Positions 49,654-57,756 of a stretch of DNA of 64,000 nucleotides are shown here, piece after piece. A model generated the notes under the pieces. That model had not been told where the DNA came from and did not search any database. It saw only the letters and a program-made list of their open reading frames with translations. The position numbers and the translations under genes were made by a program. Source of the DNA: an uncultured Clostridium sp. (GTDB lineage Bacteria > Bacillota_I > Bacilli_A > RF39 > UBA660); assembly GCA_947427095.1 (NCBI GenBank), contig CANEGO010000003.1, positions 1-64,000 on the forward strand, in the 5' to 3' direction. The stretch's first letter is position 1. Every line of letters begins with the position of its first letter.

Positions 49654-49666
49654 CTTTGCTTTCAAA

Positions 49667-49710
49667 TGGCAGGGGATGAGAGAATCGAACTCCCAACAGT
49701 GGTTTTGGAG
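49667..49710 (-). pseudogene. tRNA-Trp 3' half (left scar)
   Basis: 44 nt identical to the 3' part of the intact tRNA-Trp at 57536-57579, from the anticodon loop (CTCCAAAACC) to the encoded CCA. It stops at TTTTGGAG, where module 1 begins. Confidence 0.9.
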
Positions 49711-49870
49711 TTGATGACCTAAATATCATAGTCCCGTCATTATATATTTTATAATTTAGTGTAGCAATGATCAACATATAAATTACACTTTTATTTTAAC
49801 CAATTTATTTTCATTAATCAATACAAATGTTAACATTTGTATAAATATTTTTAAAATCGCGGGCTTCGCC
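49711..49870. repeat. 160-bp terminal inverted repeat, left copy (module 1)
   Basis: Exact reverse complement of 55837-55996 over all 160 bases by eye. Begins TTGATGACCTAAATATC directly after the TTGGAG core, ends GGGCTTCGCC. A further ~110 bp inward is similar but diverged. Confidence 0.92.
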
Positions 49871-49941
49871 GGTAAGTGTAGTTTCGAGAGTAGTTAATTC
49901 TTTTTTCTAAAAGTATATAAATAACTCTTAAAAATCAAAAC

Positions 49942-50011: not shown

Positions 50012-52360
50012 TTAATTCTTTTTATAACTTTCTATTAACTCATTTTTCCATTTATCAACATTTTTAATAAATTCAGAATTATTTCCAAGTTGTTTTTTTA
50101 CATGCACAGGATTAATCATATATATAAATGATATTAGGTTTTTAGCAGTTATTTGTTTCTCTTTCTGTGATATAAACTCATAAAAATTACTATCTGGAAA
50201 TGAAATTGCTTGATCACTTAAATGGCTTTCACTATTTAATACTAACCTATACATAAAATTTTCAAAGTAGTTTCTTAACTCATAAGGTATTAATTTCAAA
50301 ATATCTTCATCTCTCATAAAGAGTTCCATGCTATTTTTACATTGGAAAGTTGAGAAGGCTTCTAATATTTTTCTCATTGAATTTCCGATTGTTAAGTCAT
50401 ATTCATCATTAGGCTTTAGTGCATATTGATACATAATATTAAAGGCTTGTGTATATGAATTTTTATCGAATTTTCCAAAATCTTTAGTTTGTTTATCAAA
50501 TAAGGTTAAGTATGACATATTGAATTTTTTTAACTCTTCTTTAAATTTTTGGAAATTTATCATAACATCAATCTCATGAGTAAATATAATAACCTTGTTA
50601 ATAGGATTATTATTTAAAATTCTGCTTAATTTTAATCTTAAAAAAGAATACATACCAATTTTGTTTTCAAAATCAAAACTTGAAATTGGATCATCTATTA
50701 TTAATAAAAAATTATTAGTATATTCATTAGTTTCATCAGTGTTTTCGAGAATTTGAGCAAAAAAGTAACATAATGCAATGGCATTTCTTTCTCCAATAGA
50801 TAATTTTTTTAATTCTACTTTTTGGCCATAAGATAAAACCATATATTTGTCATGTTTACAAACTAATGATAATCTTTCTTTTCCAAAAAAAATATATTCT
50901 AAATCTTCATTTATTTTTTTTAATGCTATATCGAAACTTTTTTTCTGTGCGTTTATTTGATCTATTTTATTTTTTATTTCATTGCCAAGTTTTTTTAGAT
51001 TTAAAAGTTTTTCATTATTTTCGTGCTGAAATTTTAGCTTTTCATTATATATTATTAAATATGAATCTATTTCATTTCTAGCGATTATTTTGTTTAAATT
51101 TTGGCTGTTAGTTATAGTTTCGTTTATGTTATCTATCTTTTGGTTGTATTGTTTTATTTCTAATTTTAATTTATTAACTAAGGTTGTTAATTCAATAATT
51201 AATTTTTCTATTTCTAATCCTGAAATCGATATAGGAATATACACATTTTTGATTTTATTATCAATACTGTTATTAATAAAATCCATATGTTTATTTACTT
51301 CATCAATTTTAGAATAAATTGTAATACATAAGCCAGAGTTTAGAGACATATAGTCAGAAAGGTCAATATCAATATGTGTTAGTATGTAGTCGGATAATAT
51401 TTCAATATGTTGTTGAACATTTTCATTTAATACTTTCTTAAATGAATTAATTAATTTTTCTTTATAATTATAATCTATTGGTTGAAAACAATATGGACAA
51501 TAAGAAATGTTTTTTGAAAAATAATTTTTAGCTGAATCTATAATTTCTTGCATACCTTTTTCTAAAATTTCAAATATTAATTTTTCTCTTTCGTTTAATT
51601 TGGGTTTTTCAATTTTTTTTAACAGTAGTTCTTTTAAGTGTTTTTCAAATTTTTCTTTTAATTTATATTCAAAAATTAATTCTGGATATTTATTATTGTT
51701 AAGGGGCATAGTTGATAAAAACGTAATATTTTCTTCTAATTCTGTAATTTCTGCTTTAATATCTTTTTTCAGCGGCATAGATATTATAGAATTTAAAATA
51801 TTTTCACCTACAGAACTTTTTCTTGATAAATTTTTTATTTTTTGCTCTCTAGTTGCCCAACTTATTTCACTTTTTAATATATCTAGCATTTTATTTTTAT
51901 AATATATAGGGGACATAGAATCTTTTTCATTCTCAATCTTTTCTTTTTTTTGTTGTTCAATCTTATACTCTTTTTTTAATTTTAAAAATTCTTCATTATA
52001 TTTTTTTAATTCTTCTTCTAATTCTATTTGTTTTCCAAACATAACTATTGTATTCATACCATCTTCTGAAAATTTAATTTTATTATCAATAAAAGTTTCA
52101 TTAAAAATATATATATTACTTTTTTCTTCTTCTGTTAATGTAATTTCTTTTTGATCAAAATCATTTAGTCTTAAAACACTATAATTAGAATTAATATTTT
52201 TTTTCAAATCAAAAAAAGCATTTGAAATTGATGTTTTACCACTTCCATTTCTTCCATATATAAATGAAATTCTATCATCTTTATTTTTAAATAAATTGAT
52301 ATTTTTTTCTTCTTCAAAAAAACCACCTTTAATATTAATAGATTTAATATCCTTGAACAT
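50012..52360 (-). CDS. RloC/PrrC-like ATPase, putative anticodon nuclease
   Basis: 782 residues from an ATG at 52360 with GGAGG 5 bp upstream. AAA_13-type SMC-like ATPase: Walker A FIYGRNGSGKTSIS (about 36), a long coiled coil with CxxC in ISYCPYCFQPI (zinc-hook-like, RloC feature), signature KLSIGERNAIAL, Walker B FLLIIDDPISSFD. The C-terminus has SMRKILEAF and LVLNSESHLSD, matching the Arg-Glu...His order of the PrrC/RloC anticodon-nuclease site. These enzymes cut tRNA anticodon loops when phage attacks. A terminator-like hairpin precedes its Shine-Dalgarno. Confidence 0.8.
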   Translation of the reverse strand: MFKDIKSINIKGGFFEEEKNINLFKNKDDRISFIYGRNGSGKTSISNAFFDLKKNINSNYSVLRLNDFDQKEITLTEEEKSNIYIFNETFIDNKIKFSEDGMNTIVMFGKQIELEEELKKYNEEFLKLKKEYKIEQQKKEKIENEKDSMSPIYYKNKMLDILKSEISWATREQKIKNLSRKSSVGENILNSIISMPLKKDIKAEITELEENITFLSTMPLNNNKYPELIFEYKLKEKFEKHLKELLLKKIEKPKLNEREKLIFEILEKGMQEIIDSAKNYFSKNISYCPYCFQPIDYNYKEKLINSFKKVLNENVQQHIEILSDYILTHIDIDLSDYMSLNSGLCITIYSKIDEVNKHMDFINNSIDNKIKNVYIPISISGLEIEKLIIELTTLVNKLKLEIKQYNQKIDNINETITNSQNLNKIIARNEIDSYLIIYNEKLKFQHENNEKLLNLKKLGNEIKNKIDQINAQKKSFDIALKKINEDLEYIFFGKERLSLVCKHDKYMVLSYGQKVELKKLSIGERNAIALCYFFAQILENTDETNEYTNNFLLIIDDPISSFDFENKIGMYSFLRLKLSRILNNNPINKVIIFTHEIDVMINFQKFKEELKKFNMSYLTLFDKQTKDFGKFDKNSYTQAFNIMYQYALKPNDEYDLTIGNSMRKILEAFSTFQCKNSMELFMRDEDILKLIPYELRNYFENFMYRLVLNSESHLSDQAISFPDSNFYEFISQKEKQITAKNLISFIYMINPVHVKKQLGNNSEFIKNVDKWKNELIESYKKN

Positions 52361-52370
52361 AAATACCTCC

Positions 52371-52412
52371 AAAAAAGGCTCGTATTAAACTTATTAAAGT
52401 CTAATACGAGCC
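52371..52412 (-). promoter_or_regulatory. Attenuator-like hairpin upstream of the anticodon-nuclease gene
   Basis: On the minus strand GGCTCGTATTA and TAATACGAGCC form a perfect 11-bp stem, followed by T6 and at once by GGAGG and the ATG. It would end the HTH transcript before the nuclease unless bypassed. Confidence 0.7.
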
Positions 52413-52456
52413 CTTTAACTAGTTATATTATATCAAATTCGACAAAATAATAAAAG

Positions 52457-52699
52457 CTATTCAAAGAATTTATCCATAGTTATTCCTAGTACTACAGATA
52501 TTTTATATAGTGTATCGACAGAGCAACCGATTGCTCCTTTTTTATATTCTAATCTTCTTATAAAGTCATAAGATTTACCTACATCGACAGCTAATTGTTC
52601 CTGGGTAATACCAGCTTCTAATCTATATTTCCTAATATTATTAGATACTTTTACCATAAATTTATCATCAAAGTTAAATTCTCTTTTAAACGTTGCCAA
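52457..52699 (-). CDS. XRE-family helix-turn-helix regulator
   Basis: 80 residues from a TTG at 52699, placed 7-8 bp after GAGGTGAT. HTH: VSNNIRKYRLEAGITQEQLA, VDVGKSYDFIRRLEYKKGAI, then VDTLYKISVVLGITMDKFF. It is upstream of and codirectional with the nuclease gene and divergent from the HExxH gene, so it can control both sides from the 120-bp spacer. Confidence 0.85.
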   Translation of the reverse strand: MATFKREFNFDDKFMVKVSNNIRKYRLEAGITQEQLAVDVGKSYDFIRRLEYKKGAIGCSVDTLYKISVVLGITMDKFFE

Positions 52700-52708
52700 T
52701 ATAATCAC

Positions 52709-52825: not shown

Positions 52826-54160
52826 ATGAATAATTATGATGTATCATTAAAAGGACTAGAAGATGCTTGGCATAAAAAAGATAATTATATTTTTACTAAA
52901 GATAAGAACGGGAAAAATATTTTAATTGAAAAATCAACGGGAAATGCTGTTTATGATGAATATCTTATAAATAAGTATAGGATGGTATTTGCTTGGTTAA
53001 AGGCCGTTAATTCAAGCTATGAAAGAGGAGATATTTATTCTAATACTATTTCGGAAAACGTTGAAAGTTTAGCTTTTGGAGATCATGGCCATAAAATTTA
53101 TGCTACTTTGATGGAAAATGTTAAACAACAGTTATTAAATGGTATTGATAAATATTATCTTTCGTCAGGTAATCTTACTATCCAAACCAAAGGAGCTATA
53201 GAAAATGGTTTAGATAGTGATGGATTAATAATTGCTGGTAAGCTTATATTTTGTGGTGGTACAAATGCTTCTTCTACTGTTAATTGGGTATCATATGCAA
53301 TACCAAAATTACAAAATCAACTTAATCCAACAGAAAAAAAACAATCAGTACCATCTAATGAGCATGATTACAAAGAAGAATATAATTTGCTTTTGAATAG
53401 TAGGACTGCTTTATCTAATTATAATGAACTTGTTAAAAATTTAAAGAGAAAAGCTTGGGAACATTTTGGAAATATAACTAGTACTACGAGTTTAGAAAGT
53501 AATATGTCAAAGAATATAACAGTTTATAGTTCACCACTATTAAAGATACATGGCTCTAACTTAGTTACTTGGCCAGTTGCTAATGGTAATGAAATATATA
53601 TTGATGAAAACTTTCTTAAAGATCCAAATAATGCTGATATACTTGTTTGTCAAATCATGCATGAGATTTGTCATAGTTTAGCCAATAATAAAAAAGATGG
53701 AACGCAACAATTTTTTGGCCATATTGGACATAAAACAGAAATGATTGGGCTTAATGAAGCGGCTACACAAATGTATGCAGAAGATATTACTGGAATAAGG
53801 TTATCTGAAGATGAAGATTATTTAATTCTTGTAAAAACTTGTATGAGAGTTTGTAAAATTTTAATTGGTGAGCAGTATGTTGCTAGCCAATATTTAGGTA
53901 ATGATTTAAGTTTTGAAAATAAATTTAATGAAATTACAGGTGGTAAGTTTGACGCTTTTGCGGGTATGATGAATACATTATATAATCTTTCTAAAAAATG
54001 TTATTATGATGAATATGAGAATGTTGAAGCATTGAAAATATACTTTGATAATATTTTAAAGTTTTTAAAGAAAAATTTTAAAAAACAATCAGATGTTAAT
54101 CCTGAAATATTTGAACAATTGAAAGATGAATTAGGAATTGATAAAAATATTAAAAAATAA
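52826..54160 (+). CDS. HExxH metallopeptidase-like protein
   Basis: 444 residues; AGGTGAT upstream. A zinc-peptidase signature HEICHSLANN is seen near residue 285 (QIMHEICH), preceded by NEIYIDENFL, as in ImmA/IrrE or M48-like folds; a third ligand is not certain (NEAATQMYAED about 310). The N-terminal half (about 1-170) contains YDVSLKGLEDAW and YLSSGNLTIQTKGAIENG and is unassigned. First gene of a plus-strand set with a phosphatase and an ART-like protein. Confidence 0.6.
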   Translation: MNNYDVSLKGLEDAWHKKDNYIFTKDKNGKNILIEKSTGNAVYDEYLINKYRMVFAWLKAVNSSYERGDIYSNTISENVESLAFGDHGHKIYATLMENVKQQLLNGIDKYYLSSGNLTIQTKGAIENGLDSDGLIIAGKLIFCGGTNASSTVNWVSYAIPKLQNQLNPTEKKQSVPSNEHDYKEEYNLLLNSRTALSNYNELVKNLKRKAWEHFGNITSTTSLESNMSKNITVYSSPLLKIHGSNLVTWPVANGNEIYIDENFLKDPNNADILVCQIMHEICHSLANNKKDGTQQFFGHIGHKTEMIGLNEAATQMYAEDITGIRLSEDEDYLILVKTCMRVCKILIGEQYVASQYLGNDLSFENKFNEITGGKFDAFAGMMNTLYNLSKKCYYDEYENVEALKIYFDNILKFLKKNFKKQSDVNPEIFEQLKDELGIDKNIKK

Positions 54161-54220
54161 AAGCTTATTATACGTTAGTGAAATAATATGAATTATAGAT
54201 GTTTTAGAAAGGATAAGTTT

Positions 54221-54874
54221 ATGAAAACGACAATTTATATATCTAGACATTCAGAGCCATATAAACCTAAATTTTGTAATAGTAATGATAATTTACAATT
54301 GCAAAATGAAAAACAATTACTAACACCAGAAGGTGAAAGAAGAGCTAAAATATTAAGTGAAATTGATGAACTAAAAGATATTGATGTTGTAATTTCTAGT
54401 AATTATATAAGAGCAATGTCAACAGCAAAATATATAGCAGAAAAGAATAATAAAGATTTATATGTTATAGATGATTTTGGAGAAAGAAAATTTGGTATTA
54501 ATACATGGGATGAATTACCTGATAATTTTGGTGATTTACAGTTAGAAGATGAAAATTATAAAATGCCAAATGGAGAATCAAGAAAAGAAGTAACAAAAAG
54601 AATGTTAAATGCTTTAAATAAAGTTTTAGAAGAATGCGAAGGAAAGAAAATAGCGATAGTATCACATGGTACTGCAATGTCATTTCTTTTTATGAATTGG
54701 TGTGACGTTAAAGCTAGCAATAAAGGTGAGTGGGCTAGGATATTAACTTTTAATAATAAAGATTTTTTTGATGGTAATTTTTTTGCTCCTGAATTATTTA
54801 AATTAGAATTTGAAGATAAAAAGTTAATTAATATAGAAAATATTAAAATTAATTATGGAGTTGAGTATGAATAA
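54221..54874 (+). CDS. Histidine phosphatase family protein
   Basis: 217 residues from an ATG at 54221 (AAAGGA upstream). The phosphoglycerate-mutase-like RHxE motif is at the start (IYISRHSEPYKP), then LTPEGERRAKILSE, VISSNYIRAMSTAKYIAE, and the second His in IAIVSHGTAMSFLF. Stop overlaps the next start by 8 bp, so it is coupled to the ART-like gene. A close paralog begins at 63881 (MKT.IYISRHSEP). Confidence 0.88.
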   Translation: MKTTIYISRHSEPYKPKFCNSNDNLQLQNEKQLLTPEGERRAKILSEIDELKDIDVVISSNYIRAMSTAKYIAEKNNKDLYVIDDFGERKFGINTWDELPDNFGDLQLEDENYKMPNGESRKEVTKRMLNALNKVLEECEGKKIAIVSHGTAMSFLFMNWCDVKASNKGEWARILTFNNKDFFDGNFFAPELFKLEFEDKKLINIENIKINYGVEYE

Positions 54875-55694
54875 GGAAAAATATATTAAATTAGTAAATG
54901 AAAAGATAGATAATAATGCAAGAAAATTACTATTAAAACAAATAGAAAGATATTATGATGCTGTAAATAATTATGAACCTAAAATAAGTAGTTATAAGAC
55001 AGGAGATTTAGTTAAGTTAGAAAAAGGTACTCTTCTTCACGGGACTTATAAAAACATTGAAGGATTAGAAAAAATAGCTAAAGAGGGTTTAATATGTGAT
55101 TTAGTAGTTGAAGGTAGGAGTTCTAAGTATCCATTAACGATATGCGTTTGGAATTTACAAAAAGATTATTTATTAAAAGATTATATTGATTTTTATAGTG
55201 GTGCAACTATTATGTTTAAAGGCGAAAATTTGAAAGAGACTTCTGTAATTCCATATAGTAAAATGACTAATATTATGAATATTGTAACTAGAGATGATTA
55301 TTTTATGTGGACTATGGAACAAACTAAGGAAGCTAGATTTATGCCTAGTTATCAACAGGAAAACGTACAAATAGGAATTATTTTTAATGGAAACAACTGT
55401 TTTTCGCAGGAATTATTAAAAGGTGATATCTTAAATATTAGTATGAGTGATATAGCTGTTAAGCCTTTTTTAAATGAATGGTTTTATGAAAGATTTTTAA
55501 AAGATAGAAAAGAAAAAGATGATTTCTTTACTAATAGAGAAAGTGCAATTATCTTTGGATTACCATCTTGTTTTATTGAAGGTATATTAGTTGGACGAAA
55601 ATATGAAGTGGATAATAAAATGTTAAAAAGAATAAAAAAATTGCTTCCTAATTGTTATATTTGTAATTTGGATGGAAAGGTAATTGTAGAATAA
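54867..55694 (+). CDS. Possible ADP-ribosyltransferase-fold protein
   Basis: 275 residues from an ATG at 54867 with GGAG upstream. GTLLHGTYKNIEGLEKIAKE followed by GL is the H-G-T and helix pattern that opens many ART/DarT-like folds; later SAIIFGLPSCFIEGILVGRK resembles the end of such domains. A catalytic Glu cannot be fixed by eye, so the assignment is tentative. Coupled to the histidine phosphatase upstream; last gene of module 1. Confidence 0.45.
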   Translation: MNKEKYIKLVNEKIDNNARKLLLKQIERYYDAVNNYEPKISSYKTGDLVKLEKGTLLHGTYKNIEGLEKIAKEGLICDLVVEGRSSKYPLTICVWNLQKDYLLKDYIDFYSGATIMFKGENLKETSVIPYSKMTNIMNIVTRDDYFMWTMEQTKEARFMPSYQQENVQIGIIFNGNNCFSQELLKGDILNISMSDIAVKPFLNEWFYERFLKDRKEKDDFFTNRESAIIFGLPSCFIEGILVGRKYEVDNKMLKRIKKLLPNCYICNLDGKVIVE

Positions 55695-55826: not shown

Positions 55827-55855
55827 ATCGCTTTCGGGCGAAGCCCGCGATTTTA
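55827..55855 (+). terminator. Hairpin at the end of module 1
   Basis: CGGGC-GAA-GCCCG enclosed by ATCG/CGAT, followed by TTTTAAAA. It straddles the inner border of the 160-bp repeat, so the stem is complete only at this end. Confidence 0.5.
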
Positions 55856-55996
55856 AAAATATTTATACAAATGTTAACATTTGTATTGATTAATGAAAAT
55901 AAATTGGTTAAAATAAAAGTGTAATTTATATGTTGATCATTGCTACACTAAATTATAAAATATATAATGACGGGACTATGATATTTAGGTCATCAA
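55837..55996. repeat. 160-bp terminal inverted repeat, right copy (module 1)
   Basis: Exact reverse complement of 49711-49870. Ends GGTCATCAA immediately before CTCCAAATT, the first core of module 2. Confidence 0.92.
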
Positions 55997-56107
55997 CTCC
56001 AAATTACTTGGTCGCCTTAACATTATGAATTTCTAATTTCTATATTTTATAAGGTATTAATCTCATACAGGGGATTAGTTAAATGGTATAATAATGGTCT
56101 CCAAAAC
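55997..56107. repeat. 111-bp inverted repeat, left copy (module 2)
   Basis: Exact reverse complement of 57571-57681. Runs from core CTCCAAATTACTTGG to core GTCTCCAAAAC and contains a complete tRNA-Trp 5' half on the plus strand (56069-56098) with a promoter-like TTAACA / TATATT pair upstream. Confidence 0.92.
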
Positions 56108-56125
56108 TACTGTATAAAGTTCGAT
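56069..56125 (+). pseudogene. tRNA-Trp 5' half joined to a diverged 3' part
   Basis: AGGGGATTAG...ATGGTCTCCAAAAC is identical to the intact tRNA, but the 3' side reads TACTGTATAAAGTTCGATTG, keeping only the T-loop. The acceptor 3' strand is missing, so it is not a working tRNA in this orientation. It looks like an attP-type arm. Confidence 0.8.
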
Positions 56126-56156
56126 TGGACAAGCAGAAATAAATGATAAAAAAGAC

Positions 56157-56330
56157 TCAAAGCTTTGGCTTTGGGTCTTTAATCTTTCTAATGGTTATTT
56201 TATTCTTACAAGTTAATATCTCTATATTATCATGAAAATTAAATCCTAATTTTTGTAACCATTTACCTTTTAACATAATGTATGGATTTTCTTTAAAGTC
56301 TTTATAAACAGATATTTTCCTAATTTTCAT
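56157..56330 (-). CDS. SymE-like toxin (AbrB-fold) small protein
   Basis: 57 residues from an ATG at 56330 with AGGTG upstream: MKIRKISVYKDFKENPYIML, then KGKWLQKLGFNFHDNIEILT. The order strand - PxIxLxGxWLxxxGF - strand is that of the SymE family, endonuclease-like toxins of AbrB ancestry often held back by antisense RNA. It overlaps the 3' end of the recombinase gene by 11 bp. Confidence 0.78.
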   Translation of the reverse strand: MKIRKISVYKDFKENPYIMLKGKWLQKLGFNFHDNIEILTCKNKITIRKIKDPKPKL

Positions 56331-57354
56331 GATAAACACCTGCTTGCCCATCATTTTCTATATTTGAGATTATTGAATGTTTGGCGTGTTTGGTTTTAAG
56401 ATCTTTTGGTGACATATCAACGTATATTTTTGTTGTTTCAATATTAGTATGTCCCAAAAGATCACGAAGTGAAAAAGGATCACCACCATTTATTACAAAG
56501 TGCGTTGCAAACGTATGTCTAAATTTATGTGGGTTCATCTTAAATCCATCACCAAATATTTTTTTGGCTTTTCTACTTAACAATCCATAAACCATTTCAG
56601 TATTTAATGATGAACCTAAAATAGGTTCGTTAAACTGATTATGAAATTTAACGAAAAGTGAACCTTTTTCAGTTCCTTTTAAAACTTCACGCCTATAAAC
56701 ATTGAATATTCTCTCTGTTTCTTTTGAATAGTAGACCATGCGAAAGGTATTGGTTTTAGTAGAATATACGTATATGCTTCTTTCCTTAATATTAATATCT
56801 TCTAGTTTGATGCGTACAAGTTCACTATTTCTTACACCAGTATCAAGTAATACCATAACTATTAGTAAGTTTCTTAATTCTGACTTGTACCGTAAATCAA
56901 ACGAAGTAATTAACTTTCGCACTTGGTCTACCGTAAAGTAATCTATTTTTTCTTTTCTAATCTTTTTAGGTTTAATGTTGCGTGCAGGATTGGCTATTAA
57001 ATACCCATCTCGTTCTAAATAGTTGAAGAAAGCTCTTAGTGCTCTAGCATGACAATTAAAGGTATTTGTTTTATGTTTTGAATATTTACTTTCAATATAA
57101 AATTTTATTTCTTCTCCAGTTAGTTTTTCTAAACACCCAACCTTTTTAATTTGCACTAAGAACTTTCGAAATGCATTAAGTTTATCTTTATAGAAATGCT
57201 TAGTGGGTTCGGCCAATCCACGTTCTTCCATATTATTAAAAAAGTATTTCATAGCGTCATCAAAAGATAGATTACTTTGCGCAGGTTGTTTTGCATCTTC
57301 CTTTCCAAATTTTTGAAAAAAGTTTGTTAGTTCGTTGATGGTCTGTTCTGTCAT
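56320..57354 (-). CDS. Tyrosine recombinase (phage-integrase family)
   Basis: 344 residues; AAAGGAG is 7 bp before the ATG. An N-terminal SAM-like core-binding domain (about 25-115) is followed by the catalytic domain with LLDTGVRNSELVRI (Arg), NPHKFRHTFATHFV (His-x-x-Arg), LLGHTNIETTKIYVD (His and nucleophile Tyr) and a Lys in the beta hairpin (YSTKTNTFR). XerC/D-like size. It lies between 111-bp inverted repeats and next to its tRNA-Trp target, so it should catalyse both integration and inversion here. Confidence 0.92.
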   Translation of the reverse strand: MTEQTINELTNFFQKFGKEDAKQPAQSNLSFDDAMKYFFNNMEERGLAEPTKHFYKDKLNAFRKFLVQIKKVGCLEKLTGEEIKFYIESKYSKHKTNTFNCHARALRAFFNYLERDGYLIANPARNIKPKKIRKEKIDYFTVDQVRKLITSFDLRYKSELRNLLIVMVLLDTGVRNSELVRIKLEDINIKERSIYVYSTKTNTFRMVYYSKETERIFNVYRREVLKGTEKGSLFVKFHNQFNEPILGSSLNTEMVYGLLSRKAKKIFGDGFKMNPHKFRHTFATHFVINGGDPFSLRDLLGHTNIETTKIYVDMSPKDLKTKHAKHSIISNIENDGQAGVYHEN

Positions 57355-57523: not shown

Positions 57524-57535
57524 TAAATTCCTAAA

Positions 57536-57609
57536 TGGCAGGGGATGAGAGAATCGAACTCCCAACAGTGGTTTTGGAGACCATTATTATACCATTTAAC
57601 TAATCCCCT
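57536..57609 (-). tRNA. tRNA-Trp(CCA), intact copy
   Basis: 74 nt with encoded CCA. Acceptor AGGGGAT pairs with ATCCCCT; anticodon loop CTCCAAA gives CCA; T-arm GGGAGTTCGATTCTCTC-type. Its 5' 30 nt and part of the anticodon loop belong to the right 111-bp repeat of module 2, its 3' part to the module interior. Confidence 0.92.
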
Positions 57610-57681
57610 GTATGAGATTAATACCTTATAAAATATAGAAATTAGAAATTCATAATGTTAAGGCGACCAAGTAATTTGGAG
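57571..57681. repeat. 111-bp inverted repeat, right copy (module 2)
   Basis: Exact reverse complement of 55997-56107, from GTTTTGGAGACC to GTAATTTGGAG. Confidence 0.92.
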
Positions 57682-57711
57682 ACCATTATTATACCATTTA
57701 ACTAATCCCCT
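57682..57711 (-). pseudogene. tRNA-Trp 5' half (right scar)
   Basis: 30 nt identical to the 5' half of the intact tRNA-Trp, directly after the last TTGGAG core. Together with 49667-49710 it rebuilds the original tRNA. Confidence 0.9.
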
Positions 57712-57726
57712 AAATGGAACAAATAA

Positions 57727-57756
57727 ATTATAACATAAAGTTAAATAAATTATCAA
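57727..57756 (-). promoter_or_regulatory. Original tRNA-Trp promoter
   Basis: On the minus strand TTGATA (57751-57756) and TATAAT (57727-57732) with an 18-bp spacer, about 16 bp upstream of the displaced tRNA 5' half. Confidence 0.65.

Follow-up and report, generated by a model that had tools for sequence, protein, structure and literature searches.

A gene in the window analyzed here (the whole 64,000-nucleotide stretch of contig CANEGO010000003.1 from an uncultured Clostridium sp.) raises the question of whether a tRNA-cutting enzyme is encoded on an element that itself lies in a tRNA gene, and of what would keep such an enzyme silent. The initial annotation proposed an anticodon nuclease with an attenuator before its start and saw a striking pairing in its location. 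The reading that we favor, and consider probable, is that the gene encodes a defense RNase of the RloC family, in which a Rad50-like zinc-hook ATPase controls a HEPN-type domain, that a hairpin in the leader acts as a brake, and that the gene is exchangeable cargo of a genomic island.

At the level of sequence, the protein has every feature by which RloC has been defined. The published definition comprises ABC ATPase motifs, a length of 658-897 residues, a CX2C coiled coil, and a C-terminal Arg-X3-Glu-X36-52-His in which Ser commonly precedes the His (Davidov and Kaufmann 2008, PMC2610378). The open reading frame lies on the minus strand (50012 to 52360), with its ATG at 52360, its stop at 50012, and a Shine-Dalgarno sequence, GGAGG, at 52366 to 52370, and its product has 782 residues. 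The ATPase motifs are GRNGSGK at residues 36-42, LSIGE at 520-524, DDPISSFD at 556-563, and H595; the Walker A, signature, Walker B, D-loop Asp, and switch His positions are invariant or nearly so in 32 homologues. The hook motif C288-P-Y-C291 (codons at 51488 to 51499, minus strand) sits within the coiled coil that splits the ABC/Rad50-type ATPase, and residues 234-327 give weak profile matches to the Rad50 zinc-hook structures 6zff and 1l8d. The C-terminal motif, R663-X3-E667-X45-S712-H713, lies in a helical domain of residues 628-782 (50015 to 50479, minus strand). Profile searches assign the protein to AAA_13 (PF13166, 1.5e-50), and its best PADLOC models, spanning most of the protein, belong to the candidate family PDC-S06 (2.4e-37), which is uncharacterized and has no activity assignment. 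The PADLOC PrrC model matches weakly (1.1e-5) over residues 440-713, ending at the conserved His.

The family assignment rests on aligned conservation. The bare pattern R...E.{36,52}SH is weak on its own because it is also present in three of 243 other, unrelated open reading frames of the same genome. Alignment-based scanning found 79 loci in Firmicutes, Bacteroidales, Actinobacteria, Campylobacter, and others, with more distant AAA_13 proteins at the lower scores; single-sequence scans of genome and viral contig collections found no relative, and alignment patterns were needed. The RloC-type CxxC and the C-terminal Arg-Glu...His order reported by the initial annotation both hold up, since C288 and C291, and R663, E667, S712, and H713, are invariant in all 32 full-length homologues, which come from many phyla. 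These homologues are 752-834 residues long, have a spacing of 44-50 in the C-terminal motif, and are 16-66% identical to the protein in the C-terminal domain. Identity to the homologues is 21-36% for all but one, the closest (L008), which is 57% identical and is encoded next to a type IIG restriction gene. The C-terminal domain, used as a profile, can also be aligned with a distant RloC-like group from Peribacillus and others (hhalign E value 5.5e-5, probability 66%), in which R-x3-E and SH fall in the same columns. No RloC like that of Geobacillus kaustophilus, with the exact triad numbering, turned up among 249 genomes of the order to which the L077 locus belongs. Two relatives from the same class (L005 and L006/L007) are broken by a stop codon, and one of them is also split over two contigs, which suggests inactivation or assembly errors.

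Structure models are consistent with a HEPN-type C-terminal domain, without amounting to proof. The whole-protein model (pLDDT 84.5) has long helices at residues 110-143, 342-371, 384-430, and 432-491, and its head matches Rad50 (5da9; Z 16.9 over 299 residues at 6.0 A). Fold searches with the whole model revealed the ATPase head only, so the C-terminus was modeled alone (pLDDT 85.6, pTM 0.81); confidence is low around the catalytic His, at residues 708-727. With this model the best Foldseek hit was not significant (E value 0.85), and a BFVD search gave nothing significant. In the VIA-align list, the top 16 rows are mostly HEPN proteins, at Z 4.9-6.7 (1wwp 6.7, 2hsb 6.1, 8xeh 5.6, 8yuf 5.5, and AbiV 5.1), alongside unrelated helical proteins that score about as high; values of 5-7 are within reach of unrelated helical bundles. 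The HEPN motif Rx4-6H is matched only loosely, the nearest candidate being R705-x7-H713, in which R705 is more than 90% conserved and H713 is invariant. The domain assignment agrees with the placement of PrrC and RloC in HEPN (PMC3710099). PDB sequence searches matched no solved chain of PrrC or RloC, and neither was among the structural hits. Of the earlier claim of a putative anticodon nuclease, the family assignment is thus supported by the published RloC definition and by homology, and the structural match to HEPN RNases is weak.

Comparison with known systems places the protein closer to RloC than to PrrC. It resembles the RloC proteins of G. kaustophilus and Acinetobacter baylyi (PMC2610378) in size range, ABC motifs, CX2C coiled coil, and C-terminal R-x3-E-x36-52-SH, and going by the published description even the hook cysteines are numbered alike (288/291). 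It differs in belonging to a divergent group, whose best PADLOC score is on PDLC04890 rather than PDLC04894, in lying on an island with no restriction-modification link, and in having a hairpin in its leader. PrrC of E. coli shares the ABC ATPase and the C-terminal Arg-Glu-His, but it has only 341-416 residues, lacks a zinc hook, and is tied to a type Ic restriction-modification system; no type Ic genes were found among the scanned genes of the island. As judged from its sequence, the protein fits the published definition of a further member of the RloC family, a known bacterial tRNA-cutting defense enzyme.

The gene is carried by an island in a tRNA-Trp gene. A tyrosine integrase (56320 to 57354, minus strand; Phage_integrase, 2.4e-28) lies beside an intact tRNA-Trp (CCA) at the right end (57536 to 57609, minus strand). 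At the far end is a displaced tRNA-Trp 3' half with the core CTCCAAA (49664 to 49710, minus strand), which forms a perfect 47-bp direct repeat with 57533-57579. The repeats share the 3' half and end at the anticodon-loop sequence CTCCAAA, so both ends have a tRNA fragment and a crossover core, and the element does lie in an anticodon loop as the initial annotation stated. The element also contains an internal att-like copy consisting of left arm, core, and right arm (55831 to 56126, plus strand), which is inverted with respect to the outer ends (inverted repeats I1 and I2). Besides the RloC gene the cargo includes a 444-residue metallopeptidase-like protein with HEICH and no Pfam family (52826-54160, plus strand), a histidine phosphatase (54188-54874, plus strand), and a 279-residue protein with no family match (54855-55694, plus strand). 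A SymE-like small protein (56157-56354), overlapping the end of the integrase gene, is conserved in four related islands. At the right end the tRNA-Trp 5' half occurs twice in tandem, 102 bp apart (57675-57740 and 57573-57609), and the relatives L116, L175, and L177 have only one there; the resident tRNA-Trp may be split and the intact copy element-borne. The att arms (49704-49876, 55831-56126, and 57552-57681) leave the cargo between inverted arms, a layout also seen in four related islands (L117, L175, L176, and L177). Both inverted arms contain the perfect 22-bp palindrome ATACAAATGTTAACATTTGTAT (49821-49842 and 55865-55886), possibly a site for a recombinase or accessory factor.

Related islands carry different cargo. 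Five other genera from the same family have relatives of the integrase that are 76-87% identical; in four of these an island of the same build has readable cargo, and the contig of the fifth (G157) breaks off inside the integrase. Both G181 and G1039 carry AbiL/RloAB, G992 carries a type II restriction enzyme, and G1003 carries unassigned genes (loci L177:8571-10451, L117:1005-2876, and L175:10236-11570, AbiL/RloAB twice and the restriction enzyme once). Because islands of the same build in four other genera hold different cargo, RloC is one exchangeable defense cargo of the tRNA-Trp integrase island. The arms were aligned across five genomes, in each of which inverted copies of the element's left arm flank the cargo. 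Within a genome, the core-proximal halves of the arms have almost the same sequence, while the halves facing the cargo are of outer type or middle type at the same position in all five. This pattern points to arms exchanging or converting sequence close to the core, and it gives no sign of an integrase-driven inversion of the whole cargo. We suggest only tentatively that the element family is a chassis for swapping defense cassettes, with a fixed integrase/SymE module and an internal inverted att, in which the integrase would trade cargo between the arms and RloC would be one cassette. The element resembles the anticodon-centered islands of Islander (PMC4383910) in its tyrosine integrase and in having tRNA halves at both ends, and tRNA-dependent lysogeny (PMC10865867) in that tRNA function is kept by an element-associated copy. 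It differs from both in the internal inverted att copy and the inverted arms around the cargo.

The leader of the RloC gene contains a strong hairpin that ends at the Shine-Dalgarno sequence. Two perfectly paired 11-bp outer arms (52412-52402 and 52387-52377), one G.U pair, and four further pairs form a 16-bp stem with a UAAU loop (52377 to 52412, minus strand), and a T6 tract (52371 to 52376, minus strand) abuts the Shine-Dalgarno sequence, just as the initial annotation described. The leader folds at -30.6 kcal/mol, against -13.1 +/- 2.6 for shuffled sequences (z -6.6). The terminator scan missed this hairpin, presumably since the stem absorbs the T-run, and direct folding was used. A survey of 355 genes, covering about 384 kb of the same genome, found 13 whose start is preceded by a terminator-like hairpin that ends no more than 30 nt away, one of them behind sequence resembling a T-box leader. 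The RloC-leader stem is the strongest of the 13 (-22.8; the next is -17.0). Its T-run stops 10 nt short of the start codon, and the other 12 all lie farther off, except for one poor match. The hairpin is unique in the genome; Rfam miRNA matches to it are weak and were judged to be chance. A TATAAT sequence about 14 nt before it (52427 to 52432, minus strand) is a candidate -10 box by consensus, with no good -35. Farther upstream on the same strand is a gene for an 83-residue XRE-type HTH repressor-like protein (52457 to 52708; HTH_3, 3.1e-09). It was considered as a conserved antitoxin partner and rejected, as it is not a conserved neighbor of RloC homologues.

The hairpin is more readily explained as a fixed element than as a switch. 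In a regulated attenuator, transcription would terminate until a signal such as a phage antitermination factor, the translation state, or a ligand permitted read-through. A strong hairpin with T6 at the Shine-Dalgarno sequence would suit this, and any transcript that bears the Shine-Dalgarno sequence must begin upstream of the hairpin or inside it. However, in about 490 nt of upstream sequence no contiguous pairing with either arm exceeds 7 nt, and transcripts from the TATAAT would start only about 8 nt before the hairpin, which leaves little room for an alternative fold. An Rfam scan of the leader gave no riboswitch and no T-box, none of 24 homologue leaders has a counterpart, that of the 57%-identical homologue included, and studied RloC members are already controlled after translation (PMC2610378). 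A signal-responsive attenuator is therefore improbable, though protein-dependent antitermination could escape a sequence analysis, and a leaky intrinsic terminator or fixed brake, or a terminator of the HTH gene, is likelier; of the earlier proposal the hairpin stands and the attenuation is doubtful. That the hairpin terminates the HTH gene and leaves RloC on leak-through is plausible, if somewhat short of probable, and with it we count the versions in which the palindrome serves the HTH repressor as an operator or stabilizes the 5' end of the mRNA. On the same strand, only some 45 nt separate the HTH stop codon from the hairpin that follows, and with the TATAAT just before the palindrome a repressor could act there as a block. 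A second close copy near the gene's own promoter is usual for autoregulated XRE operators, but the hairpin core GACTTTAATAAGTTTAA has none near the HTH promoter. In the favored reading the hairpin would be a leaky terminator or fixed brake that little transcript passes, keeping the toxic protein scarce; low expression is expected for RloC genes (PMC2610378).

Studied RloC proteins are latent RNases under a zinc-hook ATPase; DNA ends switch them on, and they cut tRNA anticodon loops (PMC2610378, PMC3874168). Excision of the wobble nucleotide and activation of the nuclease through a DNA-dependent ATPase are further marks of the family. By analogy, the ATPase and its zinc-hook coiled coil would hold the C-terminal HEPN-type RNase domain latent after translation, DNA damage or DNA ends, such as those from phage infection, would activate it, and the active enzyme would cut anticodon loops and stop translation. 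Alternatively, the protein may be a DNA-sensing ATPase of the Rad50/SMC type, with a C-terminal domain that, instead of being a tRNase, cuts another RNA or is non-catalytic. The breadth of AAA_13, the weak HEPN match, and the candidate status of PDC-S06 leave some room for this, but we regard it as rather unlikely, given that the invariant R, E, S, and H align with a second, distant group and that G. kaustophilus RloC needs the same triad to cleave tRNA (PMC2610378). Far less credible still is a functional coupling of enzyme and location, in which the island's tRNA-Trp copy would be resistant or the target. The intact tRNA-Trp adjoining the integrase and the duplicated tRNA halves could be read in this way. 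However, the cargo of related elements in other genera is instead AbiL/RloAB, a type II restriction enzyme, or unassigned genes, the neighborhood of the closest RloC homologue has no integrase of this type and no tRNA nearby, and the known RloC targets are tRNA-Glu/Gln (PMC3874168), not tRNA-Trp. An anticodon-loop location is also ordinary, since 2083 of 3919 Islander islands are anticodon-centered, against 1836 in the T-stem region (PMC4383910). The pairing that the initial annotation found striking is thus mostly coincidence; as RloC is exchangeable cargo, its target cannot be read from the tRNA location, which would reflect the site choice of the integrase.

An RloC-type suicide RNase in this organism would extend the range of these enzymes to a small-genome, low-GC host, with the gene carried as portable cargo that does not depend on restriction genes. 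The locus is also a caution against reading meaning into a tRNA nuclease at a tRNA gene. More interesting than the RloC finding itself is the element family, with its inverted internal att and swapped cargo. As a recurring element with different defense cargo in five genera, it could be a tractable system for the trade in defense cassettes.
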